Assembly (NCBI RefSeq): GCF_031885415.1
Contig: NZ_CP116871.1
Coordinates: 2,170,001-2,234,000, forward strand
Direction: 5' to 3'
From: Microbacterium forte
GTDB taxonomy: Bacteria > Actinomycetota > Actinomycetes > Actinomycetales > Microbacteriaceae
DNA: 64,000 nt
The notes under the pieces: model-generated
Told to the model about the DNA's origin: nothing
What the model saw: only the letters and a program-made list of their open reading frames with translations
The model's database searches: none
Translations under genes and position numbers: made by a program
Shown: positions 2-20,836 of the stretch, piece after piece
Layout of the letters: each line of letters begins with the position of its first letter
Numbering within the stretch: position 1 is the first letter of the stretch

Positions 2-352
2 CCCGACCGATTGCGTGAATTGGCCCGCTTGCACCCACGGACAGGGCCGCTGGACCGCACCCTCCGATTCGGGGAACTGACCCTCGACATCACGCACCGC
101 AGCCTCCGTTGGCAGAAGCATGCGCTGTTGCTTCCTCCGCGCGAATTCGAACTCCTGCATCAGATCATGCGCGCGTACCCGGAGAGCGTGAGCATTGACA
201 CACTCGCCCTCGCCTTCGGCTCCGACCTTGAGGATCCGCACGCCTCTGTTCGCGTCGCCATGACGAAGCTGCGCGCACGGCTGGCGACTTTCGCCCCCGC
301 ACAAGCCCTCATCGAGACGGTGCGAGTCGCCGGCTACCGGCTCGCGTCCTGA
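2..352 (+). CDS. Response regulator, OmpR-type DNA-binding domain (5' partial)
   Basis: The reading frame is open to the left edge of the window, so this is the C-terminal part of a longer protein. The visible 117 residues form an OmpR/PhoB-type winged helix: a beta-rich start (FGELTLDI), a recognition-helix region around residues 40-85 (LPPREFELL, then SVRVAMTKLRARL) and the typical closing hairpin VRVAGYRL. Proteins of this family bind promoter DNA after phosphorylation of an N-terminal receiver domain, which would lie outside the window. No sensor kinase is visible. The stop codon overlaps the end of the convergent arsC-like gene by 19 bases. What it regulates cannot be told from here. Confidence 0.75.
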   Translation, partial: PDRLRELARLHPRTGPLDRTLRFGELTLDITHRSLRWQKHALLLPPREFELLHQIMRAYPESVSIDTLALAFGSDLEDPHASVRVAMTKLRARLATFAPAQALIETVRVAGYRLAS

Positions 353-1290
353 GGCTCCACTTTGAGCTCGACCAGGAGTTGTAGCACCCGGGCGCGAATG
401 TCGTCTCGAACGCCACGAAGACCGTCTTGGTCGAGCTCCAACGGATCCGGTAGATCCCACTCCATGTAGCGGCGCCCAGGGAAGACGGGGCACGCATCCC
501 CACACCCCATCGTGATGACGTAGTCGGCGGCACGCACCACTTCATCGGTCAGCGGTTTCGGGAACTCTCCCCACAGCTCCACGCCCACTTCCTCGAGCGC
601 AGCGGCAACACGAGGGTGTGCACCCTCCGCCGGTGAGGAACCTGCGGTACGCACGTGCACCCGGCCGCCCGAAAGATGACGTAGCAGGGCTCCAGCCATC
701 TGCGACCGCCCCGCGTTCTGAACGCACACAAACAGGACCTCAGGAGTGTCACGGAGAACCAGGCCCTGACTAGTCGCCAGTGCGTCCAAGCGGTCGGCCG
801 CGTACCGAGCGGTCATCGTCAACAGGTGCTCACGCACTCGCGTTCGCTGGCTCAGCAACAGGTAGCTTTGGGCGACATAACCGGCCACTGTCTCGCGGCT
901 GAAGGTTGAACTGAATCTGTAAGAGAGGTCGTCAACGACGGTGGCCACAGCGCGTGGGAGAGCCGTGACGGGAGCCTCGGGGGTTGTCGGCTCAATCGAC
1001 TCACTCAACAGCAGTCTCCCGAAACGGACCCAGGCATCGACGGTCGGCACCCAGACATCGTCATCGCTGCGGATGAGATCGACGAGCTCCAGCGAGTGGA
1101 TTGCTTGCTCGACGACCGAGAGATCGGCATTCAGCACAACCGCTATGTCCGGCGCTTTGATACCGGAAGCAAGCGCGCTGAGAACACGGAGCGTGTCGGG
1201 GTTACCGAGAACCGACACTTGACCTGCGCGCTCCCGGGCAGCACGCTCGCCGAGAGGGCTTCCCACTCGGTGCTGCGACTCCTCGCTCAC
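334..1290 (-). CDS. arsC: Arsenate reductase (LMW-phosphatase type) with N-terminal HTH-like extension
   Basis: This 318-residue protein ends in a low-molecular-weight phosphatase-type arsenate reductase domain (about residues 180-315). The P-loop is CVQNAGRS (CX5R), followed by an MGCGDACP segment that holds candidate resolving cysteines and an acidic WDLPDP loop. Such enzymes reduce As(V) to As(III), in actinobacteria usually with mycothiol or thioredoxin. In front of the catalytic domain lie a winged-helix-like segment (about 25-95) and a three-helix segment (about 105-170, LSYRFSSTFSRETV), so the protein is about twice the size of a bare ArsC. The start overlaps the stop of the upstream ArsR-family gene by four bases (ATGA), which indicates translational coupling. 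No arsenite efflux pump is visible in the window. Confidence 0.85.
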   Translation of the reverse strand: MSEESQHRVGSPLGERAARERAGQVSVLGNPDTLRVLSALASGIKAPDIAVVLNADLSVVEQAIHSLELVDLIRSDDDVWVPTVDAWVRFGRLLLSESIEPTTPEAPVTALPRAVATVVDDLSYRFSSTFSRETVAGYVAQSYLLLSQRTRVREHLLTMTARYAADRLDALATSQGLVLRDTPEVLFVCVQNAGRSQMAGALLRHLSGGRVHVRTAGSSPAEGAHPRVAAALEEVGVELWGEFPKPLTDEVVRAADYVITMGCGDACPVFPGRRYMEWDLPDPLELDQDGLRGVRDDIRARVLQLLVELKVEPQDASR

Positions 1291-1604
1291 CGCAGAAAAT
1301 CCTCAACGGCGCTGCGGCGCGTCGGGTGCACGGAGAGCCAGCCGAGCTTGCCGTCCTGCTCACGTGCCAGGAACCCGTCGTCCAAGAGAATGCGGACGTG
1401 ATGGGTCACTGTCGGCTGCCGCAGCCCCAGCGCCTCCGTCAGTTGACCTACGGTCGCCCGTTCATCAGCCGAGCCCAGCACGATACTCAAAATCTGGAGA
1501 CGAGTCGGATCAGCGACCGCCCTCAGCGTCCGCGCCAGCTCTTCGGCCGCACCACGATTGAGCGCAGCTCCGACCCGAGGCTTCGGTGCAGGCTGAGCGG
1601 TCAT
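1287..1604 (-). CDS. ArsR-family transcriptional regulator without cysteines
   Basis: This is a 105-residue winged-helix repressor. ADPTRLQIL and the helix-turn-helix TVGQLTEALGLRQPTVTHH followed by VRILLDDGFL are typical of ArsR/SmtB proteins, which leave DNA when they bind a metal(loid). The protein contains no cysteine at all, so the usual thiolate As(III) site of ArsR cannot exist here. It may sense another ligand or use His/Asp residues. It overlaps the downstream arsC by four bases and is first in that two-gene operon. The 76 bases between it and the NACHT gene must hold its promoter; no clear operator palindrome was found there. Confidence 0.85.
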   Translation of the reverse strand: MTAQPAPKPRVGAALNRGAAEELARTLRAVADPTRLQILSIVLGSADERATVGQLTEALGLRQPTVTHHVRILLDDGFLAREQDGKLGWLSVHPTRRSAVEDFLR

Positions 1605-1680: not shown

Positions 1681-4413
1681 CTACTTCGCGAACATGTCGC
1701 CGCGAAGCTTCGACGCGGCGTGCAACCGAAGTAGCTCGATACTGAGGGCTGCGCTTGCCGGACTGCTCTGCGACAAGCTCTTCGCAGCAGCTGCAAGGGC
1801 GGGACGAGCGGCATCCCGCTCAAGAGCAATCAGCATGTCGACCGAGACTCCGAGCGAACGTCCCCGCCAGACAGCACCAGGCGTCTGCAGTTGCTCGACA
1901 AGGAGGAGGACCTCCGCCGTCGGGTTGGATGCCCGGGCGAGAGCGCGTGCGAGGATCGCCGCATCAGCGTGGATCGGTCCGGGTTCGGGTCTGATGTATT
2001 TCCGCCCCTCGGTCAAGGTCGTTCGTGCCTGCTTGGCGAGATCTGACATACCGGCACTATTGTCGCTCAATGCGCGGGTGGCGAGGTTTGCAGGGTTCTC
2101 GCGGCTGAGCTCGTGCAGGGCTTCAAGCACGATGGCCTGCTCTCGCTCGCCTTGCTCCAACGCAGTCGCCAGAAGGTTCGCAACGCCGGCCGGCATGCCA
2201 TCAGCGAGATCTGCGAATTGGTTCACAGCGGCGCTGAGGAGTTTGCGTCGTGTCGCCGGGAACTCGATCCCGAAGTTGTCGAGGTAGAGGTCGCCGGCGA
2301 GGCTCGCGCCGAGGGCTGTGATCGGCGACTCGGCGGCTTGAGTGTCGTATTGAACGACGATGTTGATGAGGTCATCGATGAGGTGCTCTCGACGCTTCAG
2401 CAGGCGGCCCGCCGCGAGCAGCCACGTGTTGCGCCAGTGACTTGATGGAACGAGTTCGCGCAGGTTCTGCAAGACGACCTGTTCGTCACCATCGGTGATC
2501 GCGCGAGCCGCCATGTATTCCTGCAGCGATCGCACCTCGAACTCATACTTCGATGTCTTCGGGGAGACGAGCATGACCAGTCGCTCCGTCGACAGTTTGA
2601 GGAGAGTCGTCGCGATCGACTCCGATTCACTCTCTTCGAACCCAGCCGCGCTCAGCCGGCGGCATAGGATACGGGAGATCTCGGCTTTCGTGAGGATAGC
2701 GTCCGAGTTACCTGGTCGCTCAGTTCTTGCTTGCAGCTTGAGCCCGGCCTGTTCGTGAAGATGGTCGATGTGTGGGCGCAGCGACTTCAGTTCCGTGAAG
2801 GCTTCACTTTTCGCCAGTTCACGGTCGTAGACGACGCGATAGTACCGGTCGAACAGCTCGAATCGATCCGTCGGAAGGTCGACTGCTTCTTCAGCGAGAG
2901 CAGTCATGATCGTCACCTGCAACGGTGTGGTCATCAGTCGTTGCGTCACTCGTTCATGGACGGCCGTGATGAGCCTTTGTGCAACCTGCTCGGCGAGGTC
3001 CGGATCGTCGACCGCCCGCAACGCGGTGAGTGCTTCCGAGTAGCTAATCGCTTCTGTCTCGGTGAGTTCAGACAGGATGATCTGCGTGCAGGGAAACGCA
3101 TCGTCGAACTCCCGCCGGTATCCCTGTGGGCGTGTTGTGGCGACGAAGAGCACGTCCGCCTTCTCAGAGCTGAGCTCGCTCACTAGCGCTGTGACGGCCT
3201 CGATGAGCCGGCTGCGGATCTTCGCGTCAGGCACCTCGTCAAGGCCGTCGAGCACGAGGCATGACGGCCAGGTGCGCAACCAGTCCAGCAACGCCCCTGG
3301 GTCCGACTTCTTCCCCCGAATCAGGATGGAATCTGCAATGTAGGTGAGCAATGAAAACGTCGACGGGGAGGATGCGATTGCGGCCCCCGCCTTTGCCAGC
3401 TCGATCACGAACGGCCACCGACGTTTCTGCGGGTTCGGGATTCCCGCCTTTCTGAGCCGTGCGTCGAGGCCATCGAAGGCGAGCTGCGCCCTCTCGCCGT
3501 ACTCCGCGACGTTTGTGTCAGCGAGGAAGGCGACACGATACGTGTGGGCGATCACTTGGGCGATCGTGCTCTTGCCCTGACCTGGGCCTCCAACGATGAC
3601 CACCCCGCGAGGCCCCCGCCCTGAGACGGTCGACAAGTGGAGGTCTCCGATTTGCACCGTCTCGGCCGCGGTCATCAACCGCAGGTGGCCCTCCTCGCCC
3701 GCGCGCGCCTCCGCAGTGAACGGCAAATCGATAGCGATGTCCGCGAGCCTCACCTTCGACGCGTCGTTGTACCCCGCGTCGCCCGTTCGAACCCATTGCC
3801 TGTTGATGAGCTCGGCGACTGCATGCCCAGCAAGCCGGTCCACCTCGAGAGCTGTCTTTTCCGGGAGCAGTTCGGCGACTTGCGCAAGAAAGTCGCCGGT
3901 GACGATCTGCTCCAGGTATCGCTGTCGAATGGACGTGTGGGTGTCGAGCATGACGCGAATCTCGTCGTAGTCCCACACGTACCACCCACGCAGCCCCAAA
4001 TCTTCCGCGTTGGCTGCAAGAAGCTGGTCGAACTGGTCGCGGCCGCCCGTGTCTTTGGTCCCCGTCAGCACAACGTTGGTGGAGAACAGCAGGTACTCCG
4101 GCGTCTTCTCGCCGACCCTCCTCTTTACGAGCCAACCACGCAGCTCGGAGCGGACCTCGTCAAGGAACCAACGCCAGTCAGCCGTCGTCGATACAGGCTT
4201 CTCGTTGTACTTCATTTGAATGACGCCGTAGCCATCCCACTTCGCGCCCGCCCCGACCGGGAAGTCGACGCGGCCGTCGAACGTGGCGTCGCGCTGCGCG
4301 TCGCGACCTGACCCAAACGGCCGGACACCATTGCCCAGCTCAGCCTTTGCAAGCGCTTGGAGCATGTGCTCGAACTGCTGCCAGCCCATTCGGTTGAGGT
4401 TGTAGTGGCCCAC
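1681..4413 (-). CDS. NACHT-type STAND NTPase with N-terminal restriction-nuclease-like domain (putative defence protein)
   Basis: This is a protein of about 910 residues. The first 100 residues look like a PD-(D/E)XK nuclease of the Mrr kind: FEHML, then GRDAQRDATFDG and YGVIQMKY supply candidate E, D and QxK residues. A P-loop NTPase follows, with Walker A GGPGQGKST near residue 278 and Walker B CLVLDGLDEVPD near 390, the arrangement of NACHT/STAND proteins. A helical region without clear motifs fills residues 600-910. NACHT proteins in bacteria often act as phage sensors that trigger an effector, here plausibly DNA cleavage. The GTG start at 4413 is preferred because GGAGG lies six bases before it; a TTG start 18 bases upstream lacks such a site. 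The 280 bases upstream, to the divergent gene at 4694, show no gene. The biological role is inferred. Confidence 0.75.
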   Translation of the reverse strand: MGHYNLNRMGWQQFEHMLQALAKAELGNGVRPFGSGRDAQRDATFDGRVDFPVGAGAKWDGYGVIQMKYNEKPVSTTADWRWFLDEVRSELRGWLVKRRVGEKTPEYLLFSTNVVLTGTKDTGGRDQFDQLLAANAEDLGLRGWYVWDYDEIRVMLDTHTSIRQRYLEQIVTGDFLAQVAELLPEKTALEVDRLAGHAVAELINRQWVRTGDAGYNDASKVRLADIAIDLPFTAEARAGEEGHLRLMTAAETVQIGDLHLSTVSGRGPRGVVIVGGPGQGKSTIAQVIAHTYRVAFLADTNVAEYGERAQLAFDGLDARLRKAGIPNPQKRRWPFVIELAKAGAAIASSPSTFSLLTYIADSILIRGKKSDPGALLDWLRTWPSCLVLDGLDEVPDAKIRSRLIEAVTALVSELSSEKADVLFVATTRPQGYRREFDDAFPCTQIILSELTETEAISYSEALTALRAVDDPDLAEQVAQRLITAVHERVTQRLMTTPLQVTIMTALAEEAVDLPTDRFELFDRYYRVVYDRELAKSEAFTELKSLRPHIDHLHEQAGLKLQARTERPGNSDAILTKAEISRILCRRLSAAGFEESESESIATTLLKLSTERLVMLVSPKTSKYEFEVRSLQEYMAARAITDGDEQVVLQNLRELVPSSHWRNTWLLAAGRLLKRREHLIDDLINIVVQYDTQAAESPITALGASLAGDLYLDNFGIEFPATRRKLLSAAVNQFADLADGMPAGVANLLATALEQGEREQAIVLEALHELSRENPANLATRALSDNSAGMSDLAKQARTTLTEGRKYIRPEPGPIHADAAILARALARASNPTAEVLLLVEQLQTPGAVWRGRSLGVSVDMLIALERDAARPALAAAAKSLSQSSPASAALSIELLRLHAASKLRGDMFAK

Positions 4414-4693
4414 AGAGTCCCTCCGGGTCAACGTCGACGCCTATGAGGCGCATTAGAGACATTCTGTACCAGTGCTGCTGCCTATCCGGCTGAACCGGCG
4501 AGCGAACGCGTTCGACCGTACGGGGTTCTCCCGGCGACGAGAAACGATCCCAATCCGATCACCAGCGCGCACATTTGAGCCGAGTAGGGCGAGGCCTGAG
4601 CTCCGCCCGCCTGCCATTGAACCGATCGGATCCTCGACGTCAATGCCCAGGGAACCCTCCCCTTCCGGTGAAGGCTCATCTACGCTGTCGCAC

Positions 4694-5344
4694 ATGGATG
4701 AAACCGATGGCCAGCCACGGCCCCGCCCTTGGCAAGCACAGCCATCCACCGATGTGATCGCGGCGTTCACTGACGCCGTCGCTCGGTTGAACGCCGACGG
4801 GGACTTCATCGTTCGAGCGCTGACTGACCAGCTGCTCGCAGAGCGACCGATCGCGGACCAGGAAGAGCTGACGCCGCAGGAGATCAGCTATCTCACCCGG
4901 TCCAAGGCCTTCACGCCCGAGTCGTTCGAGAAGACATCGACTCGGGTTGCTCGCGGCGGTCTTCTGGCGAGCGAAGCGAGCACCCTTCTGACGGGCGTGC
5001 TTCAAACCATGTCCGCGTCCGCAGCCGCTGCCTTCTTGAGTATGGACGAGGACTCGCTCTTCGCCGCCGCCGATCGTGGCGAGTTGTACGCCGTCGATGT
5101 TGCCCACTCCAGACGGTTTCCGTCGTGGCAGTTCAGTCTCTCGTCGCCAGGAAAAATCCTGCCGCACCTGACCGAGATCATCGACATTGTGAAAGACAAA
5201 GGATGGGTGTCGGTATCGGCTCTCATGGCGACGCCCCAGTCGATCATGGTCACCGACGGGCACCAGAGCCCTGTGGAATGGTTCAGGCGCGGCGGCGACG
5301 CGGAGACCCTGGCTCGGATCATCGAGGCTCAGAAGTGGCGATAG
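4694..5344 (+). CDS. Orphan antitoxin-like protein, homologous to the RES-system antitoxin at 9413
   Basis: This 216-residue protein aligns along most of its length with the antitoxin at 9413-10174. Shared points are LT-QE followed by FTPE, a GG, an HTH-like stretch, the pair PSWQF/PRWQF, a PHL and the end segment TPQ...SPVEW/TPIEW. No RES toxin lies next to it; the following gene is convergent. It may be a leftover antitoxin, a regulator, or an antitoxin for a non-RES partner such as one of the two large neighbours. The frame is open upstream to 4472, but the ATG at 4694 is chosen because the upstream part has shadow-like composition. No good Shine-Dalgarno is present; TACGCT eight bases before the ATG could be the -10 of a leaderless transcript. 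Confidence 0.6.
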   Translation: MDETDGQPRPRPWQAQPSTDVIAAFTDAVARLNADGDFIVRALTDQLLAERPIADQEELTPQEISYLTRSKAFTPESFEKTSTRVARGGLLASEASTLLTGVLQTMSASAAAAFLSMDEDSLFAAADRGELYAVDVAHSRRFPSWQFSLSSPGKILPHLTEIIDIVKDKGWVSVSALMATPQSIMVTDGHQSPVEWFRRGGDAETLARIIEAQKWR

Positions 5345-5395: not shown

Positions 5396-8300
5396 CTACG
5401 GCGTTTGGCCTCGAGCTGCGAGAAACTCCGTCGCCGTCTCAACCCGATACCGCTCGTCGACGTAGTTTGCCGGAGTGAGATTTCGGGTTACGAAGAGCGT
5501 GCTCAGGCGAAACTGCTCGCCTTCAGGCGGGTCCCCGAGTCCGAGGCGCGTCGCAATGCTCGCGACGTGGGGCGCTAGTTCGCTCTCCTTGCGGGCTAGC
5601 TGCGTGGCGTAGCAGGGCTTGGCCCCGCGGTCTCCTACCTGGTCCCGGAAGAAGGTGCGCAGTTGGCGTGCCGTCTCAGCGAATCCGTGCACCGACGCAG
5701 GATCCTTCGCCTCGATTAACCAGATGGTGCTATCGCCAGGGCGTCCGCACACGAGGTCAACTTCGGTCGTGAGAATCGGCACGCCGAGTCGCGCGTGGTC
5801 GTTGGGTTTCACGCGGGCGACCGTGGTGTAGCCGAGTTCCTCTAGCCGGTCTTGAAGGAATCTTTCGAACCGAATATTGCGGCGCGCACGGCGATCCGCA
5901 AGCGCGTTGCTGACAGGCTGGGGAACGTCTCCCGCCCAGGGAAGAACTCCTTGGAGGAGGTGGCGGTAGTAGACCTGGAAGGACGTCAGTAAGTACTGCG
6001 GGCTGATAATGAGTCGTCCGTCCGAGTCTTGCACCAGCGGTTGCACGAGGAGCCGGTGACGCCGTGTGCGCGTTTGCCAGGGTTTCCACTCCACGGCTTG
6101 CATCTGGACGGCCGTGCTGGTGAGCATCCGAATAGCGGCGTCAACACGCGTTCTCTGCGACTCATCCGCGTCCGGGCCCAGCGCGTCACAGACCCATGCT
6201 GTTGCCTCGGCCACGGTGACGTGCGCGGTCGTCCTGCTTGGCTCGAACGTTTCCCACTTTGCGAGGGTGGCGAGTGCGGCGAGCATGTCCTGCGACGTCG
6301 CTCCCCATGCCGGCTGGAACGCATCTTCGACGTCGTCTTCTTCGTTCGCCTGTTGCAGCGAGTCGTCGTCTTGAGTGCCGTGCAATCGGACGCTCGCAGC
6401 TGCACGGGTCAGTTCGTCGTTTCGCAGGCCCCACGCCGATGCGTCGGGATGCGGATCGTCGTCAACTGCCAGCTCGTACATCGGGCTGAGGTTGATGACT
6501 GCGGGCGCGACTTGGTGATACATCCGCTCACTCAGCGTGGTCGCGGTGAGGTACGCATCTGCGGCGGCAAGAAGACCGCTCCACTCCTGAGGAGTGATCG
6601 GCTTCACCGCCGCCGGATTGCCCAGGATGCGCAAGGCAGCCTCCACCACGATCTCGTTACACTGACGAAGCTGAAGTGTCTCCGCCGAGAGCTCGGCCGT
6701 GCGGGTGAGCGGATCCCATTCGGTCGCGAGATTCGCTGCGACTCGGGATAGATCGTCTTGCTGATGAATGGCACTGTCCATCACCCCCGCCAGCTGCTCC
6801 ATCCCCGTGAGCACCACCTCGCTCACGTCGTGTCTCTTGATTCCTTCAGTCAGGGTCTCGAGAGCAAGGGGCGCAAGATGCTCGCGGATGAGTCGATTCG
6901 CGTCGTCCGCTCGGTACTCTCCCGGTTGAACGCCGGCGTCGTGGAGTCGTCGTCCCAAAGCCGCAACCATGCGGCTCTCATCAGAGGGTCGTAGACGCCA
7001 CGGATCAGGCAGGTGATTGAGAGTGGTCCGGGCCTGCTTCATCTCCAAGATGAGAAAGGGTCTCGCTGTGCGCCACTGGTCGCGGAGCGCCGCTCCGGTG
7101 TCGATATCCATGCCGCCCGCGCGGAGCAGATCGAACACTGCATCCGCTGTTAGGAGATTCGCCGCGTGCGGATCTCCATTCGCCGAGTCTGCGAATCCCT
7201 CGACATCGATGCGCCACAAGAAGTTGACTGGTTCGTCGACGGCACGCGCGTGCGGGTCGAGATACGGCGTGACCACACCGGGCGGTTCACCCGAGACCGT
7301 TTCCGATGCGTGGAGGTAGAGGACGTATCCGGGCACATCGATCTCCTGGTGCGCGAAACGCCATCGATCACCAAGCGCAGCGAAGCCGTAGATTAGCCCG
7401 CCGCAGAAGTCGAAGAAGAACCGTCGGTGGTCGGCAGATGCTTCCTCCAGGCTCGCCCGTGCCACGGCAACGGGAGGTTCGGTGAGAGCGAGAGACCACC
7501 CGTCAACACTCGGCGCGATGTTGACACCGCGGGTGGCGTCGTACATGGGGTCACCTGCGATCATCGCGACGTTTGCGACGGGCCCCGGGGCGACTTCTGC
7601 CGCTCGGAGGTCTCGAATCGGGGGAAGCCCAACCCTGAGGAGCGCCACTTCGAGATCCGATAGCTCTACCGCTCGATCCCACTCGGCCTCGCCCGCGTGC
7701 GCTTCAAAGTAGACGGCATTGGGTACCACGCCACCCTTGAAAAAAGACTTGCCATTGGCTTTCCATGGCTCCCAGTAGTTGATCGCTTCCCATCCGAAAC
7801 TCTCAGGGAAATCGGGAGCGCTCAGGTCCCGCGTGAATGCGTAGAGATCATCGTCGGACGTAGCCGTTTCCGCGATCCAGGTCAGGTCTTCGAGCGCGAG
7901 TTTTGCTTCGCCGACCGCCTGCGGCACAGCGATGTGACCGGGCGCAGCGAACACCGTCAACGGGATGACCTCCGCGCCCGGCCTGACGGTTCCTCGTCGC
8001 CCGCCCGCCATCCGCACCGGCACAGGGTCTGATTGCGACCTCACCTGTTTCGCCAGCTCCACTGAGCCGATGTATGGCGCCGGCGCGGCCCCCAGGTCGG
8101 GGACGTAGATGACTGAGACGGCGATGAAAGTGGACGGGTTCACCGGCACCAACCACTGAACGTCAATCCCGCGAAGCGGGGAATCGAGGCCTTCGCTGTT
8201 GGGAGGAGCTTCGATCAAGCTGTTGGAAAAGCGCCATAGGGACTGGCGAATCTGGTTCAGGCAAGAACTCCGGAGGGCTCGTCGTGCTTGCCCGTCCCGG

Positions 8301-9154
8301 TCGAGCGCAGACACCAGTTCTCGTACGGCATGGGCCATGATCTCTGGGATGAAAAGTGGCGGCACCCATCGATGTGCACCCGCCGAGTCAGCGAAGCGAA
8401 GGTACCTCCCGAACGGGCTGGAGAGACTCTCCGCGTCGAACGTGGCCCGACTTGCGGAGTTCGTCATCCATTCCAACGCCCTTTCATCAGCTTCACCGAG
8501 TTCGATGTGGTCGAGCGGGTTCAGGTTGAGGAGGGCCCGCGTCGCTTCGTACTCCGCGTCCGGCAGGGAGACCTCGTCGTTGAGCGCGAGGTCCGGGGCT
8601 GGTACCCATGCGTCTGCAAGGTGGCGGGCGCAGAAGTCGCCGTACTTCATCGCCACGTTCACCACGTTTGCGATGCCGAATTGAAATCGTCTGTGAAGCC
8701 GACCGTCTACCGCTTCCGCCATTCTGAGCGCACGCGTGAGGTCGGCGACCGGCCGTTCGGTGAGGCCAGGCACCGCGCGCAGCGGCTCAGAGCCGACCGC
8801 GAGGAAGACAGTTCGAGTCGGGTCGGTGGGGATGAAATCTTCACGCGCCGGGCCGATCCCATAGGTGGTAGCCGCTAGATCGGACAGTGCTTGGATCGAA
8901 GGCAGCGGCTGGTATTCGTCTGGCGCCGGAGCGGCGGAGGCTCGTAGCGCAGCCGCGAAGCTGCTCCCCAATGTCACCGACCGATGCCTGTTGCCGGGGG
9001 ACGTGGCGGCGGCGAAAATCAGCGTCCAGAGCTCGTCCGGATCGTACGCTGAAAAGGCCAGTTCGAGTGCGTCGGGCTCCCGTCGCGCGGCGCTCACCGC
9101 CCGCGGTTGAGATCGAGACCGCTTGCTTCTCCGAGTTTTCTTGCTCTTTCCCAC
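5396..9154 (-). CDS. Unrecognised protein of about 1250 residues with C-terminal PD-(D/E)XK nuclease motif
   Basis: The family is not recognised. The N-terminus is basic (KKTRRSKRSRS). Residues 40-1080 show no motif that can be named, apart from a conserved-looking central block with FFFDFCGGLIYGF. The last 160 residues look like a PD-(D/E)XK nuclease: FERFLQDRLEELGY (E near 1097), TTEVDLVCG (D near 1133) and IWLIEAKDP (E-x-K near 1148-1150), the order found in restriction and repair nucleases. The gene lies between two homologous antitoxin-like genes and near a NACHT NTPase, so defence against foreign DNA is a reasonable guess. The start is uncertain: GTG at 9154 (used), TTG at 9166 or GTG at 9097, none with a clear ribosome site. 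There is no frameshift or in-frame stop. Confidence 0.6.
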   Translation of the reverse strand: MGKSKKTRRSKRSRSQPRAVSAARREPDALELAFSAYDPDELWTLIFAAATSPGNRHRSVTLGSSFAAALRASAAPAPDEYQPLPSIQALSDLAATTYGIGPAREDFIPTDPTRTVFLAVGSEPLRAVPGLTERPVADLTRALRMAEAVDGRLHRRFQFGIANVVNVAMKYGDFCARHLADAWVPAPDLALNDEVSLPDAEYEATRALLNLNPLDHIELGEADERALEWMTNSASRATFDAESLSSPFGRYLRFADSAGAHRWVPPLFIPEIMAHAVRELVSALDRDGQARRALRSSCLNQIRQSLWRFSNSLIEAPPNSEGLDSPLRGIDVQWLVPVNPSTFIAVSVIYVPDLGAAPAPYIGSVELAKQVRSQSDPVPVRMAGGRRGTVRPGAEVIPLTVFAAPGHIAVPQAVGEAKLALEDLTWIAETATSDDDLYAFTRDLSAPDFPESFGWEAINYWEPWKANGKSFFKGGVVPNAVYFEAHAGEAEWDRAVELSDLEVALLRVGLPPIRDLRAAEVAPGPVANVAMIAGDPMYDATRGVNIAPSVDGWSLALTEPPVAVARASLEEASADHRRFFFDFCGGLIYGFAALGDRWRFAHQEIDVPGYVLYLHASETVSGEPPGVVTPYLDPHARAVDEPVNFLWRIDVEGFADSANGDPHAANLLTADAVFDLLRAGGMDIDTGAALRDQWRTARPFLILEMKQARTTLNHLPDPWRLRPSDESRMVAALGRRLHDAGVQPGEYRADDANRLIREHLAPLALETLTEGIKRHDVSEVVLTGMEQLAGVMDSAIHQQDDLSRVAANLATEWDPLTRTAELSAETLQLRQCNEIVVEAALRILGNPAAVKPITPQEWSGLLAAADAYLTATTLSERMYHQVAPAVINLSPMYELAVDDDPHPDASAWGLRNDELTRAAASVRLHGTQDDDSLQQANEEDDVEDAFQPAWGATSQDMLAALATLAKWETFEPSRTTAHVTVAEATAWVCDALGPDADESQRTRVDAAIRMLTSTAVQMQAVEWKPWQTRTRRHRLLVQPLVQDSDGRLIISPQYLLTSFQVYYRHLLQGVLPWAGDVPQPVSNALADRRARRNIRFERFLQDRLEELGYTTVARVKPNDHARLGVPILTTEVDLVCGRPGDSTIWLIEAKDPASVHGFAETARQLRTFFRDQVGDRGAKPCYATQLARKESELAPHVASIATRLGLGDPPEGEQFRLSTLFVTRNLTPANYVDERYRVETATEFLAARGQTP

Positions 9155-9342
9155 GCAAGCATTCAAGCGTAAGCCAACGACATCCGCACTGATTACTGAG
9201 CGTTGAAAGCGTTGCGCCGGGGAGGAAGGTGGCGAAGAGTTGGGGTGCCGCCTCGAACGCGCGGACGACAGGTCTCCTTCAACGCCGCTGCTCCCGGGCC
9301 AGGGAGCTCTTGACCGCTCTCACCTCGTCACCTCGCGGGGGT

Positions 9343-9382
9343 GCATACACGCAAAAGCGCGCGTAAGATATTGCGTGTACGC
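9343..9382. promoter_or_regulatory. Inverted repeat, likely autoregulatory operator of the RES toxin-antitoxin operon
   Basis: TACACGCAA (9346-9354) and TTGCGTGTA (9371-9379) are perfect inverted copies separated by 16 bases. With one mismatch the arms extend to 12 bases, GCATACACGCAA and TTGCGTGTACGC. The site lies 30 bases upstream of the antitoxin ATG, where an antitoxin or toxin-antitoxin complex would repress its own promoter. Confidence 0.6.
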
Positions 9383-9412
9383 GCTAACCAGATGACGACA
9401 CGAGGAGGCAAG

Positions 9413-10174
9413 ATGGCCGTGAAGAAAAGTCGCACTCGTGCCGCCTCCGCTCGCGAGGCGACTGTGAACCGCGGCACAGTGACAGGTCGATTCCTCAACG
9501 GGAACCCGAAGCTCGTCGTGGCGACCAAGGCCCCCGCAAAGACCGACGTACAAGCCGGTGTCGAGCGCCTTGCGCAGGTGGCGAAGACGTCAAACGTCGA
9601 CGTATCCGTGTTCAACGCACTCATCGACGAGCTCGCCGATGCCATGACCGACCGTCAATCGACCGAGCTGGGCCTCACAGAGCAGGAAGCCAACTTCCTG
9701 ATCGAGTCTGGCGATTTCACTCCGGAGGAGCTCGCCGAGGCAGCCGCATTCGTCACCAGCGGTGGGATCGCCAAGCTCGAGCGCGAGACTCACGTGCGCG
9801 CCCTAACCAACACCTACACCGCATCCGAGGTCGCAGCGCTCCTCGGCATCGATGCCTCCAGTGTGCGTCACCGCCAGAGCAAGAACACCTTGTACGGCTT
9901 CCGGGCAGGAAGGATCCGCCTCTACCCTCGATGGCAGTTCATTTCCGGCGATAGGGTCTCGACGATCCCCCACCTCCCGCTGCTCGTCCGAGCGATCCCG
10001 TCCGACTGGGATCCGGCCGACGTCGAAGGCTTCATGACAACACCTCAAGACGACTTGCGGTCGAGCGATGAGTCTGTCGACCCCCAGGAATGGATGACGC
10101 CGATCGAGTGGCTGGCTGCCGCGAAGGATCCTGCACCCGTAGTGGACATCCTCGAAGACGCCGACATCACGTGA
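9413..10174 (+). CDS. Antitoxin of a RES-type toxin-antitoxin pair
   Basis: This 253-residue protein precedes a RES-domain toxin and overlaps it by four bases (GTGA), the usual antitoxin-first order. It has a basic, flexible N-terminus (MAVKKSRTRAAS). A middle helix-turn-helix-like segment YTASEVAALLGIDASSVRHR suggests DNA binding, and the end segment TPIEWLAAAKDPAPVVDIL resembles the C-terminal toxin-binding part of MbcA/ParS-type antitoxins. It is longer than typical Xre/DUF2384 antitoxins. AGGAGG at 9403-9408 decides the start at 9413 over earlier in-frame GTG/ATG codons, which would also place the operator inside the gene. A homologue without toxin lies at 4694. Confidence 0.75.
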   Translation: MAVKKSRTRAASAREATVNRGTVTGRFLNGNPKLVVATKAPAKTDVQAGVERLAQVAKTSNVDVSVFNALIDELADAMTDRQSTELGLTEQEANFLIESGDFTPEELAEAAAFVTSGGIAKLERETHVRALTNTYTASEVAALLGIDASSVRHRQSKNTLYGFRAGRIRLYPRWQFISGDRVSTIPHLPLLVRAIPSDWDPADVEGFMTTPQDDLRSSDESVDPQEWMTPIEWLAAAKDPAPVVDILEDADIT

Positions 10175-10809
10175 GCCCGTCGAACGCGAAAGTCCCCGCA
10201 ACACCCCCGGCGCCGCTCACACTCGACGCGAGTGAGCACCTGAGATCATTCGATGGGATCCTCTGGCGGGTCTTCGCTACGAGAGGTGCTCACCCACAGG
10301 CGTGGGATGAGCTACGGCACTTCGGGCCGATCAGAACCATGCGCTTTGACCCGCATCCCGAGCCGCAGCAGCACCATGCCGATTATGGCGTGACGTACGC
10401 AGCTGCCGGATCTACAACAGCTCTCGGCGAGGTGTTTCAGAAGGGCCGACTAATCAATCGGCGCGTTCGTGGAAACACCCTCGCGGCTTGGCGGCCGACG
10501 CGTGAGCTTCGGTTACTGGATCTCACCAGCAACTGGCCCGTGATCAACGGGACGACCTCTTCGATCCAGATGGGGCCTAAGCGATACACGCGGAACTGGG
10601 CGAATGCGATCCATGACCAGCTTGGGTCGAGCATCGACGGGCTCTACCATGTGTCATCGATCGACTTCGGCCCGATGGTGACGCTGTTCTCGTCCGCCGA
10701 GGGCTCGTTCCCGCCGCTGCCGTTGGTGCACACCCGACTGGACTCATCCAGTGCGAACGTGTACCTCGCGAAAGCCGTGAAAAGGCTCGGCTACCGCGTT
10801 AAGAAATAG
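10171..10809 (+). CDS. RES-domain toxin
   Basis: This 212-residue protein carries the RES domain. LWRVFATRG provides the conserved Arg, a second block reads YGVTYAAAGSTTALGEVF with the conserved Glu, and a later segment reads IDGLYHVSS. RES toxins such as MbcT and ParT are NAD-degrading or ADP-ribosylating enzymes that stop growth when the antitoxin is lost. The GTG start at 10171 overlaps the antitoxin stop (GTGA), so translation is coupled. The open frame extends upstream to 10090, but that part lies inside the antitoxin gene and lacks family features. All main motifs are present, so the toxin looks intact. Confidence 0.85.
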   Translation: MSPSNAKVPATPPAPLTLDASEHLRSFDGILWRVFATRGAHPQAWDELRHFGPIRTMRFDPHPEPQQHHADYGVTYAAAGSTTALGEVFQKGRLINRRVRGNTLAAWRPTRELRLLDLTSNWPVINGTTSSIQMGPKRYTRNWANAIHDQLGSSIDGLYHVSSIDFGPMVTLFSSAEGSFPPLPLVHTRLDSSSANVYLAKAVKRLGYRVKK

Positions 10810-13064: not shown

Positions 13065-13748
13065 TCAGAGCGGCGAACCGCCGTCGACCGTCGCAACGAC
13101 CGCGACGATGTGCCCGCCCTTGCGCTCGACCCGGCGCACCGACGCGGGGTCGACGGCATCGCGCTCGAGCATCCGCCACGGCCGTGCCGAGATGTCTGCC
13201 CCGCCCGTCGCGCAGGCCAGACGCGCCAGCGGTGAGAGCACACGCCAGAACCCGTGCGGCGGCTGCATGTCGACGATGCACGCCCGTGCGCCGGGGCGCA
13301 GGCACGCCCGCGCTCGACGCCAGGCCTCTTCTCGCTCGGTGATCACGCTGAGCGAGTAGGTCGCGAGCAGGGCATCCGCACGTCCGTCGCCACCGCCGCG
13401 CAGCTCGGTCACGGTCCGAGTCACCGCTTCGGGTTGCAGCTCTGCGGCATCCGACTCGATCAGGCGCACCCTGTCCCCCCAGCCCTCCCGGTCGATCCGC
13501 CTCTGGGCAACGGCCAGCATCTCGGCGCTGCGATCGATGCCGATCACGACCCCCGACGGCCCCGTCGCGTCGAGCAGCAGCGCGAAGTTCAGACCGGTGC
13601 CGCATCCGAGGTCGACGACGGCGTCGCCGGGGCTCAGGTCGAGCAGAGAGATCCCCGCCAGGCGTCCGGCCCGATACACCGGGCGCTCACCGGAGAGCAC
13701 GTCGTACCACCGCGCACCCACGCCGTAGCGCCGCATCAATGCCGCCAT
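13065..13748 (-). CDS. Class I SAM-dependent methyltransferase
   Basis: This 227-residue protein has the Rossmann-type SAM fold. Motif I is VVDLGCGTGLNFALL near residue 42, an acidic residue ends strand 2 (IGIDRSAEM), and a motif II/III region reads DALLATYSLSVI. The sequence resembles UbiE-like methyltransferases that act on lipids or small molecules; the acceptor is not known. The ATG at 13748 is chosen because GGGAGGG lies just before it. A longer frame to 13829 would run into the divergent reductase gene. It is convergent with adh across a hairpin terminator. Confidence 0.85.
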   Translation of the reverse strand: MAALMRRYGVGARWYDVLSGERPVYRAGRLAGISLLDLSPGDAVVDLGCGTGLNFALLLDATGPSGVVIGIDRSAEMLAVAQRRIDREGWGDRVRLIESDAAELQPEAVTRTVTELRGGGDGRADALLATYSLSVITEREEAWRRARACLRPGARACIVDMQPPHGFWRVLSPLARLACATGGADISARPWRMLERDAVDPASVRRVERKGGHIVAVVATVDGGSPL

Positions 13749-13786
13749 CCGCCCTCCCGCTTCCGGGTCCACTCTAGGCTTCAGGC

Positions 13787-15277
13787 ATGAGCACCCCTTC
13801 TCGCAGACCGGCGCGCGCACTGACCGCACGTGAAGCAGGCGGACGCATGTGGGACCTGGTCGTCATCGGAGCCGGCAGCGCCGGACTCGTCGGGTCGCGC
13901 ACCGCAGCCGCGCTCGGCGCGCGCGTGCTGCTGGTCGAGGCGCACCGGTTCGGCGGCGAATGCCTGCACACCGGCTGCGTGCCGTCGAAGGCGCTCATCG
14001 CGTCGGCCGCCGCCGCACACGCCGCGCGCAGCAGTGCAGGGCTGGGTGTGACCGCGGGCGAGATCCGGGTCGACTTCCCCGCCGTCATGCAGCACGTGCA
14101 CTCCGCGATCCATGACATCGAGCCCGTCGACTCCCCCGAGACGCTCAACCGAGACGGCGTCCACACGCTCGTCGGACGCGCGCGGTTCGATGGCCCTCGA
14201 TCCGTCGTGGTCGGCGGTGAACGCATCGCGTTCCGTGACGCGCTGATCGCCGCGGGAAGCACGCCGGTGCGCACGTCCGTCGAGGGCGAGGCGTCGATCG
14301 ACGTGCTGACGAACGAGACGTTCTGGGATCTGGAGGAACTGCCCGCTCGGCTGCTGGTGCAGGGCGGCGGCGCGATCGGCTGCGAGCTCGCGCAGGCGAT
14401 GGCGCGTCTCGGCAGCGCGGTCACGCTGGTGCACCGGGGCGATCGACTGCTGCCGAAGGAGGATGCCGCGGCGAGCGCTGTCATCCTCGCCGCCCTGCGC
14501 GCGGACGGCGTCGACGTGCGTCTCGGCACGACCGTGCGCGCCTTCGAGTCCCCCGGCTCCGACGACGATCCCTCCCCGTCAGGAACCGCGACGCTGAGCG
14601 ACGGCACGCAGGTCGCATTCGATCGGGCGCTGGCCGCACTGGGTCGTCGCGTCGAGGCCGGAGACCTCGAACTGTCGGCAGCCGGTGTGCGCCTCGATCG
14701 CCGCGGAGCCGTCGACGTCGACGCCTCGCTGCGCACGTCGAACCCGCGCATCCGTGCCGCCGGTGATGTGACCCCGCTGCCGCGGTTCACTCACACCGCC
14801 GGCATGTACGGCAGCGTCGCCGCGACGAACGCCGTGCTCGGGCTCTCCCGCAAGATCGACGCCAATGTCGTGCCACGCATCACGTTCACCTCGCCCGAGG
14901 TCGCGGCCGTCGGCATCACGCCGGACGATGCACCTGGACGAGGGATGCGAGTGGTCGTGCATTCCCACGCTCATCTCGATCGGGCGATCGCCGACGGGCA
15001 CACCGACGGCTTCACGAGCATAGTCGTCGACCGGCGAGGCCGCGTCACCGGCGCCGTCATCGTCGGACCGCGGGCCGGAGAGTCGCTCGCGGAGTACACC
15101 GTGGCGGTGAAGACCGGCATGAACGTGCGCACGGTGGCCACGACGATGCACGCCTATCCGAGCTACTCCGACGCCGGGTGGAATGCCGTCGTGAAGGAGG
15201 CGCAGCGCGGCCTCCGCGGCGGGGCCGTCGCATTCGGCATCCGCGTCCTGGGCCGCATCCATCGTCGCCGCGGCTGA
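13787..15277 (+). CDS. FAD-dependent pyridine nucleotide-disulfide oxidoreductase
   Basis: This 496-residue protein belongs to the class that includes dihydrolipoamide dehydrogenase and mercuric reductase. The order is FAD-binding VVIGAGSAGL (residue 24), redox-active pair CLHTGCVPSK (about 62), NAD(P)-binding motif QGGGAIGCELAQ (about 195), second FAD motif IRAAGDVTPLPRF (about 322) and C-terminal dimerisation domain with the His-Ala-Tyr-Pro segment. The typical HPT-E of lipoamide dehydrogenases is replaced by HAYPSYSDA, as in many family members of unknown substrate. There is no C-terminal vicinal cysteine pair and no HMA domain, so true mercuric reductase activity is unlikely. TAGGCT near 13774 could be a -10 for a leaderless start at 13787; ATG at 13847 is the alternative. 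Confidence 0.85.
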   Translation: MSTPSRRPARALTAREAGGRMWDLVVIGAGSAGLVGSRTAAALGARVLLVEAHRFGGECLHTGCVPSKALIASAAAAHAARSSAGLGVTAGEIRVDFPAVMQHVHSAIHDIEPVDSPETLNRDGVHTLVGRARFDGPRSVVVGGERIAFRDALIAAGSTPVRTSVEGEASIDVLTNETFWDLEELPARLLVQGGGAIGCELAQAMARLGSAVTLVHRGDRLLPKEDAAASAVILAALRADGVDVRLGTTVRAFESPGSDDDPSPSGTATLSDGTQVAFDRALAALGRRVEAGDLELSAAGVRLDRRGAVDVDASLRTSNPRIRAAGDVTPLPRFTHTAGMYGSVAATNAVLGLSRKIDANVVPRITFTSPEVAAVGITPDDAPGRGMRVVVHSHAHLDRAIADGHTDGFTSIVVDRRGRVTGAVIVGPRAGESLAEYTVAVKTGMNVRTVATTMHAYPSYSDAGWNAVVKEAQRGLRGGAVAFGIRVLGRIHRRRG

Positions 15278-18836: not shown

Positions 18837-19787
18837 ATGCCGTCGCCGACCCTGCCGATGCAGAGCACCCCCACCATGCAGAGCACCCGAACCATGCAGA
18901 GCACCCTCACCACGCCACGAGGCGCCGGCCGTGTCATCCGCGTGGCGCTGACGATGCTGCTGGTGGCCTGGTTCGCTCTGCCGTTCCTCCCCCTCGTGCT
19001 CTGGGCGTCCGCCGACGCCTGGTCGTTTCCGTCTCCCCTGTCCACGGCATGGGGAGTGCAGGGCCTCGAGGAGGCTCTGGGCTTCGGCCTGGTGCCGGGA
19101 TTCGACCGGTCCGTGCTGCTCGGATCGGTCGTCGCCGCGGTCGCCACACCGCTCGGCGCCCTCGCCGCGCGGGCGCTGACCTTCGGCACCGTACCCTTCC
19201 CTCGCACGGTCTCGGCGCTGCTGCTCGCACCCATCGCCCTGCCGCCGTTCGCCGCGGTCCTCGGCGTCAACGTGCTGCTGCTGCGCGCATATGTGCCTCC
19301 GATCGTCGGCGTGGTCCTGGTGCTCGTCGTGCTCGCTCTGCCGTACACGACGTTCGTGATGCGCGCGGCGTACGGCGCCTACGACCTGTCATACGAAGAG
19401 GAGGCGCGACTGCTCGGCGCCACGCCCTCTCAAGTGCTGCGCCGCGTGCACCTGCCGATGATCGCCCCCGCGCTCGCGCGGGCCGCGTTCCTCGCCTTCC
19501 TCGTCGCGTGGAGCGACTACATCGTGACGGTCATCGTCGGCGGCGGCGAGCTCGTCACCCTTCCGCTGATCGTGGCAGGAGCCGCCGCCGGTCTCGGCAA
19601 CGACGCCGCCGTCGCCGTCATGTCCCTCGGAGCGGTCATCCCCCCGGTGCTCCTCCTCGTCGCCGTCCTGACCCTGCGTGGATCCGGCCGAGCCGCTGGC
19701 GGAAGGCGCCGCAGGCCATCCGCTCCCCCGAACACCACCTCCGCCGCCTCGTCTTCCCACCCCACGACCCCAGGAGCTTCCGCGTGA
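18837..19787 (+). CDS. ABC transporter permease, YnjC-like (second)
   Basis: This 316-residue protein has about six membrane helices and the EAA loop (YEEEARLLGATPSQVLRRVHLP). The stretch before the first helix is unusual: three tandem 18-base units, each with an in-frame ATG, encode MQST-(P/R/L)-T three times (18858-18911). The true start is therefore uncertain among 18837, 18858, 18876 and 18894; the first is used. The C-terminal tail is long and polar. The stop overlaps the ATPase start as GTGA. Confidence 0.8.
   Translation: MPSPTLPMQSTPTMQSTRTMQSTLTTPRGAGRVIRVALTMLLVAWFALPFLPLVLWASADAWSFPSPLSTAWGVQGLEEALGFGLVPGFDRSVLLGSVVAAVATPLGALAARALTFGTVPFPRTVSALLLAPIALPPFAAVLGVNVLLLRAYVPPIVGVVLVLVVLALPYTTFVMRAAYGAYDLSYEEEARLLGATPSQVLRRVHLPMIAPALARAAFLAFLVAWSDYIVTVIVGGGELVTLPLIVAGAAAGLGNDAAVAVMSLGAVIPPVLLLVAVLTLRGSGRAAGGRRRRPSAPPNTTSAASSSHPTTPGASA
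18858..18911 (+). repeat. Three tandem 18-base units with in-frame ATG codons
   Basis: The units ATGCAGAGCACCCCCACC, ATGCAGAGCACCCGAACC and ATGCAGAGCACCCTCACC follow each other without a gap at the 5' end of the second permease gene. They differ only in the fifth codon. Copy-number change would add or remove possible start codons without shifting frame. Confidence 0.9.
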
Positions 19788-20836
19788 GCGCCGACCTCGT
19801 CCTCGACGGACTCGACAAGAGATTCCCCGGCTCGCCGACGCCTGCACTGCGGGCCTTCTCTCTCACGGTGGCCGCCGGCACCTGCACGGCCGTGCTCGGC
19901 CCCAGCGGGTCGGGCAAGAGCACCCTGCTGCGGGTCATCGCCGGACTGGAAGACCCGGATGCCGGAACGGTGCGCATCGGCGGCACGGATGTCGCCGGGG
20001 TCGCGGCGGAGCGTCGTGGAGTCGGGATGGTGTTCCAGCGCTCGCTGCTGTTCCCGCACCTCTCGATCCTCGACAACGTCGCGTTCTCCGACCGCGTGTC
20101 GGGCATGAGCCGCAGGGCTGCGCGATCCCGCGCCGACGACTACCTCGAGATGGTGCAGCTGCAGGGGTTCGGCGACCGCCGGGTCGGCGAGCTGTCGGGT
20201 GGTCAGGAGCAGCGGGTCGCGATCGCTCGGGCTCTCGCCGCTGAGCCGGCGGTGCTGCTGCTCGATGAGCCGTTCAGCGCTCTCGATCCCGCGCTGCGCA
20301 GCGACATGCACGACCTTCTCGAGGCCGTGCGCCGCGCGGTCTCGCCCACCATCGTGCTGGTCACACACGATCGAGACGAGGCGGCACGGGCGTCGGATCG
20401 CATCGCCCTGGTCGAGCACGGCGTGCTGCTGCACGAGGGCACCGTGCGCGAGGCGTACCGCCAGCCGCAGAATCTGCGAGCGGCGCAGCTCATGGGAGGT
20501 CGGAACGCGATCGCCGGCGAGGTTCGCGACGGGCGTCACCACAGCGCGCTCGGCTCGGTGCCGGTGCCGCCTGAGACACCGACAGGTGCCGGAACACTTG
20601 TGATCCGGCAGGAGGACGTGGCCGTGCTCGCAGACGACGGCGATCGGGCGGTGCCGTCGGGCGCGATCTCGGGCGTCGTGGAGTCGGTCCGGGTGACCGG
20701 TGCGCGGTCCGACATCGTCGTGCGCTGCGGCGACGCCGCGTTGCATGCCGAGGCGCCACCGACGCAGCGGTGTCAGCTCGGCGACCGTGTGCGGCTCGCG
20801 CTGCCGACCACGGCCGTTCACGTGATCGCCGGCTGA
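19784..20836 (+). CDS. ABC transporter ATP-binding protein, YnjD-like
   Basis: This 350-residue ATPase powers the Ynj-like importer. Walker A is GPSGSGKST (about residue 38), the Q-loop is VFQRSLLFPH, the signature is LSGGQEQRVAIARAL, Walker B is VLLLDEPFSALDP, and the switch His is in VTHDRDEA. About 110 residues after the ATPase core form a TOBE-like regulatory domain (VIRQEDVAVL, then SGVVESVRVTGARSDIVVRC), as in sulfate/spermidine/iron type importers. The GTG start at 19784 overlaps the permease stop and has AGGAG upstream. It is the last gene of the operon, convergent with the radical SAM gene 46 bases away. Confidence 0.9.
   Translation: MSADLVLDGLDKRFPGSPTPALRAFSLTVAAGTCTAVLGPSGSGKSTLLRVIAGLEDPDAGTVRIGGTDVAGVAAERRGVGMVFQRSLLFPHLSILDNVAFSDRVSGMSRRAARSRADDYLEMVQLQGFGDRRVGELSGGQEQRVAIARALAAEPAVLLLDEPFSALDPALRSDMHDLLEAVRRAVSPTIVLVTHDRDEAARASDRIALVEHGVLLHEGTVREAYRQPQNLRAAQLMGGRNAIAGEVRDGRHHSALGSVPVPPETPTGAGTLVIRQEDVAVLADDGDRAVPSGAISGVVESVRVTGARSDIVVRCGDAALHAEAPPTQRCQLGDRVRLALPTTAVHVIAG

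Follow-up and report, generated by a model that had tools for sequence, protein, structure and literature searches.

A distant Upx relative from Microbacterium forte and its actinobacterial branch, predicted to act as single-gene anti-phage nucleases

What does a protein of some 1250 residues do in a stretch of the Microbacterium forte genome where toxin-, antitoxin- and NACHT-like genes surround it, and does it need any of them? The stretch (the window) comprises 64,000 nucleotides of contig NZ_CP116871.1, positions 2,170,001 to 2,234,000, and an earlier note on it had singled out a long frame at 5396..9154. We propose that the product of this gene suffices by itself for anti-phage defence and represents a divergent, actinobacterial branch of the Upx family, with a predicted C-terminal nuclease effector, and give this reading a probability of about 0.78. 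The frame itself proved real and intact, running on the minus strand from a GTG at 9154 down to 5396 and encoding 1252 residues, and the plus strand in the frame of base 5396 is interrupted by stops. An alternative TTG start, giving a frame of 5396-9166 (-), is possible, and the homologue consensus start MGxxKxxK agrees with the GTG. The genome, a single contig of 3.75 Mb with a stated completeness of 100, carries one copy of the gene, whose GC content is 63.4% against 68.7% for window positions 12-64 kb and whose product contains no strongly hydrophobic segment. A scan of the upstream region for promoters found no sigma-70-like site, a result that is uninformative for an actinobacterium.

A homologue search covering about 5.8 billion proteins, in which the best 7993 candidates were scored, returned 52 homologue clusters at 37-96% identity, with Microbacterium, Leucobacter, Microcella, Arthrobacter and Curtobacterium as hosts among the named minority. 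A profile search added one further cluster (total 53). The window protein and 52 homologues were aligned as A1 (53 rows). According to the earlier note, the roughly 1000 residues preceding the nuclease motif belonged to no nameable family. This holds for Pfam, which gave no match to the window protein at an expectation value (E) of 1 or below and none for three other members scanned (P0043, P0046 and P0051), but not for PADLOC or the PDB. PADLOC returned one match, Upx, at E 1.1e-4 over residues 1024-1173 only, and Upx was likewise found in all seven of the other members scanned (E 3.6e-7 to 0.011), although in P0046 two unrelated models outrank it. In the PDB the sole match at E<=1 was 9wuf_A (1272 residues), from an entry released on 2026-02-11 under the title 'Cryo-EM structure of Upx'; a 525-residue stretch of this chain scores 1025 bits against the PADLOC Upx model.

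Compared directly with 9wuf, the A1 profile aligned at E 1.7e-9 over residues 662-1166 only. A second alignment, A2, of 16 Upx-clade rows from alphaproteobacteria and Deinococcus matches 9wuf over 40-1252 at E 1.8e-215, and hhalign joined A1 to A2 over 1126 columns (27-1253 with 10-1241) at E 1.7e-17, compared with 0.88 for a reversed A2 and 0.15-0.93 for eight column shuffles of A2. Fold comparison showed the same overall fold as the solved Upx, and the E, D and ExK of the C-terminal active site align at the homologous place in Upx. It is very probable, therefore, that the window protein belongs to the Upx family as a divergent actinobacterial branch. Calling the gene a new defence protein went too far: its family has been described before and has a solved structure, and the protein is a divergent branch of it, not a new system.

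The likeness to Upx (PADLOC PDLC02221; PDB 9wuf) extends to organisation, since both are encoded by one gene of around 1.2-1.3 thousand residues with no obligatory partner and share full-length profile homology, overall fold and a C-terminal PD-(D/E)XK domain. The named hosts of the window branch are actinobacteria, unlike those of the A2 clade, and its conserved 401-500 segment is matched only loosely in Upx-clade rows. Two Streptomyces plasmid proteins, P0055 and P0056 (1248 and 1245 residues, 97% identical to one another), carry the same C-terminal motif, and P0055 is a full-length relative by hhalign with A1 (E 1.5e-26 over 1093 columns). Their best local BLAST segments are nevertheless only 26-29% identical to the window protein, and neither has a PADLOC match at E<=1. 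At the level of fold, Nt.BspD6I and FokI-type nucleases resemble both the C-terminal domain and the N-terminal region 120-487.

The putative catalytic residues are conserved across the branch. E1097, D1133 and E1148-A1149-K1150 sit where the earlier note had placed them, and their conservation in A1 shows that the pattern is not due to chance: a D-x(9-20)-[DE]xK motif occurs at the C-terminus of 50 of the 53 sequences, window protein included, with D1133, E1148 and K1150 invariant in all 50 rows that have a residue there (the other three rows are gapped) and E1097 a glutamate in 51 of 51. Measured in 50-residue blocks, conservation was highest at 401-500 and 1101-1200, with 101-150 close behind. 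Residues 401-500 (window 7655-7954), conserved as strongly as the nuclease, contain the motif WEAINYWEPWxxNGKxFFKGG...HAGEAEW, to which Pfam gives no match; some Streptomyces and Upx-clade rows show a weaker W-xx-W pattern in the alignment.

We compared 14 loci from named genomes, taking about 8 kb of flank per side where the contig allowed and comparing mechanical open reading frames of at least 70 residues by blastp (E<=1e-8) and by phmmer (E<=0.01). Within the fetched flanks, the only gene common to all 14 is the Upx-like gene. Its company varies, and much of it is defensive. A PADLOC scan of 19 neighbour proteins (a selection of the frames) from eight loci (L005 and L008-L014) identified Avs3a (1081 bits) and PifA (180 bits) beside the Leucobacter gene of L010, PDC-S73 (403 bits) in L012, PDC-S58 (146 bits) in L009 and a 2TM effector (144 bits) in L005. 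A protein of L014 is 88% identical by blastp to the L010 Avs3a, the PADLOC run having been made on the L010 protein only, and in the Upx clade a Deinococcus gene adjoins Avs2 (316 bits). One neighbour protein from L002 had no PADLOC match.

The gene is sparsely distributed. Matches at E<=0.001 occurred in 9 of 247 genomes of the genus, 4 of 299 in a family draw and 4 of 396 in a phylum draw, draws that overlap and include the genome itself. The closest named relatives are from Microbacterium, with the M. algeriense G1 protein 99.9% identical. The Microbacterium proteins of L009, L011 and L014 are 84-88% identical to the Leucobacter protein of L010 but 52-53% identical to the window protein, which we read as horizontal transfer. 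A phage or viral origin was rejected, since no relative was found in viral contigs (searched with two peptide patterns, 77 stretches), in phage records or, at E<=0.001, in predicted viral structures.

A relative of solved structure, an active site that does not vary, changing defence genes nearby and a sequence with neither a canonical Walker A motif nor a strongly hydrophobic segment together point towards a defence nuclease that works by itself. The earlier suggestion of a single-gene immune nuclease is thereby supported in kind, as a prediction, by full-length homology, fold, catalytic residues and neighbours. A defence function is highly likely, and the assignment of the C-terminal domain as nuclease effector is predicted with only slightly less assurance. 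As a distant and hitherto unlabelled relative of Upx, a one-gene anti-virus nuclease, the protein probably serves in immunity, cutting DNA when phages attack. Upx itself is reported, in work by Gao et al. in 2020, to protect against phage. No publication on the mechanism or structure of Upx was found by title or abstract among the matches listed. PMC10855318 places Upx in a table of nucleic-acid-degrading systems, citing Gao et al. 2020, and PMC12629846 and PMC12824646 count it as an anti-phage system.

What we infer beyond this, namely nuclease activity, substrate, trigger and cell survival, suggests the following model. The PD-(D/E)XK domain would be the effector, most likely cutting DNA via E1097, D1133, E1148 and K1150, and the other 1000 or so residues would restrain it and recognise an infection signal; that the N-terminal part is the sensor we hold at even odds. 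Among nucleotide-binding motifs the search covered canonical Walker A only, which was absent from all 53 rows of A1 and all 16 of A2. ATP-driven DNA translocation is therefore unlikely, ATP-driven restriction was rejected, and the protein would probably be triggered by binding phage DNA, or a protein of the phage, directly.

Several observations weigh against our interpretation. The PADLOC Upx profile aligned only at 1050-1200 of its 1271 positions (about 12% of its length), detecting only some 150 C-terminal residues, and the precomputed Pfam label PF28173 is borne by none of the 53 homologue clusters, as against 14 of 14 in the Upx clade. These two facts place the branch well outside Upx as catalogued, and the lack of a profile match over most of the length is why we speak of a new branch of the family. 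Identity to 9wuf is only about 12% and the root-mean-square deviation is high, so that the branch may differ from Upx in trigger and target. For Upx itself, protection against phage is taken here from papers that cite the original work. The defence company is also uneven: neighbours in L013 (29 bits) and L008 (27 bits) match PADLOC only weakly, no defence gene was found among the four L011 proteins scanned with PADLOC, and one of ten distant window frames used as a control, unchecked as real genes, also matched. That frame, 19049-20836(+), hit mad3 at 108 bits and, judging by the models matched, is probably an ABC-type ATPase. The L008 match, JetC-like in a 1146-residue neighbour, was not counted as defence; it is probably a coiled coil, since the three surrounding genes are TetR-like, Maf and a dicarboxylate symporter. 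Separately, the 14 Upx-clade clusters (P0057-P0070) all carry PF28173.1 in the precomputed data, and our own Pfam scan of P0057 missed that family.

In our model, part of the N-terminal half seems to adopt a restriction-endonuclease-like fold that no longer has its catalytic residues and may serve DNA binding, dimerisation or control. Tentatively, and with the odds somewhat against it, Upx-family proteins could be tandem restriction folds, in which an N-terminal pseudo-nuclease (about 288-405) serves as sensing or gating part for the active C-terminal nuclease. In the actinobacterial branch this copy would have lost its catalytic residues, as would, by eye, that of the 9wuf protein, whose aligned stretch has no ExK. 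For the window branch we rejected an additional active nuclease in the N-terminal half, the motif occurring in 1 of 53 sequences only. LEAK stands at the aligned place in 10 of the 16 A2 rows and is replaced in the other six; the N-terminal copy of Rhizobiales relatives may keep D304...E315-A-K317 and be active. The dead copy would be the DNA- or phage-sensing and gating part. If this is true, the Rhizobiales relatives would be double nucleases and the family would grade naturally from two active sites down to one. Confirmation of the fold would open a direct, testable way to learn how Upx, lacking both motor and partner protein, detects infection. More broadly, the branch brings into actinobacteria a single-gene defence family about which little is known, in a form that the PADLOC and Pfam profiles we tried largely miss, and offers many natural variants for mapping the role of the thousand non-nuclease residues.

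The alternative that survives best, though we consider it unlikely, is a modification-dependent or sequence-specific restriction enzyme (type IV- or type II-like) that cuts incoming DNA without sensing infection. Some 4 kb away, at 13065-13829 (-), there is indeed a class I methyltransferase-like gene, but none of the other loci compared has a match to it. At 1252 residues the protein is far larger than type II or IV nucleases usually have to be, the Pfam scan revealed no DNA-modification reader domain, and the name 'Restriction endonuclease' may be automatic. Judged by the absence of a canonical Walker A motif, the protein also lacks the nucleoside triphosphate-driven motor of McrBC-like type IV enzymes, a point that bears on motor-type enzymes only.

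The earlier note had also entertained the effector of a multi-gene system; its partners would be the flanking antitoxin-like genes, the RES toxin and the NACHT ATPase. All of these are adjacent and stay together in the window and its close Microbacterium relatives (L002-L004, L006 and L007), and L005 has a diverged copy of one antitoxin-like gene next to its broken Upx-like gene. Neither blastp nor phmmer, however, found homologues of any of them in the fetched flanks of L008-L014, the antitoxin-like genes lie on the opposite strand, and the one at 9341-10174 already has a RES gene beside it. Effector-antitoxin linkage is thus limited to one clade and L005, and because it is clade-specific we reject such a system as highly improbable. 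Least credible of all is a housekeeping or repair nuclease. Hjc, EndoMS and other repair nucleases do match the fold of the nuclease domain with middling Z scores, but 238 of the 247 genomes of the genus have no match, the gene has moved horizontally, varying defence genes lie nearby and distant relatives occur on Streptomyces plasmids.

Table 1. Features of the Upx-like gene and its neighbours, in window coordinates.
Feature	Position	Strand	Remarks
Upx-like single-gene protein, 1252 residues	5396..9154	-	GTG start; TTG at 9166 possible
C-terminal PD-(D/E)XK nuclease domain (predicted), residues ~1079-1252	5399..5920	-	
E1097 codon (catalytic motif, helix A)	5864..5866	-	E in 51/51 aligned sequences with a residue
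D1133 codon (catalytic motif)	5756..5758	-	D in 50/50 with a residue
E1148-A1149-K1150 codons (E-x-K)	5705..5713	-	E and K each 50/50; aligned with ECK of 9wuf
Possible N-terminal restriction-endonuclease-like fold without catalytic motif, core ~288-405	7940..8293	-	
Best-conserved stretch outside the nuclease, residues 401-500	7655..7954	-	Alignment A1 and conservation by blocks
Antitoxin-like gene, convergent with the Upx-like gene; judged outside the system	4472..5344	+	Homologous to 9341-10174
Antitoxin-like gene, divergent from the Upx-like gene, adjoining the RES gene	9341..10174	+	
RES-domain toxin-like gene	10090..10809	+	PF08808, E 5.2e-8
NACHT/AAA-type ATPase, same-island neighbour	1681..4431	-	PF05729, E 8.2e-5

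The labels given earlier to the neighbouring genes fared unevenly. The two flanking genes are indeed homologous (28% over 191 residues, E 2e-17), but the name antitoxin has a weak basis: 9341-10174 matches Xre-MbcA-ParS in Pfam at E 0.18 only, 4472-5344 matches no Pfam family at E<=0.1, and a RES-domain partner was seen beside the former only. For the gene at 1681-4431, the PF05729 (NACHT) match is present but below the Pfam cut-off, and AAA barely exceeds its own (21.3 against 21.2 bits); it is possible that this is a NACHT defence protein. Its product is 94-100% identical to copies in five close loci, and by eye its first 120 residues resemble a restriction-type nuclease domain (GSGRDAQRDATFDG...VIQMKY). 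Adjoining the defence genes at 334-1604 (-) are a gene resembling low-molecular-weight phosphatases and one for an ArsR-family regulator, which may form an arsenic-resistance pair.

Some of the other loci show the gene in different states. The homologue of Microbacterium suaedae (L005, 8001-11752) is broken into two frames, with a 2TM effector of the cyclic-oligonucleotide-based anti-phage signalling system (CBASS) type and a PIN-domain protein downstream. In Bifidobacterium subtile (L015, 8031-9069) only two small frames are left, apparently remnants of a degraded gene. On two different large linear Streptomyces plasmids (L032 and L035) one and the same block of small hypothetical genes comes after the Upx-like gene, with mechanical frames that are 86-99% identical.
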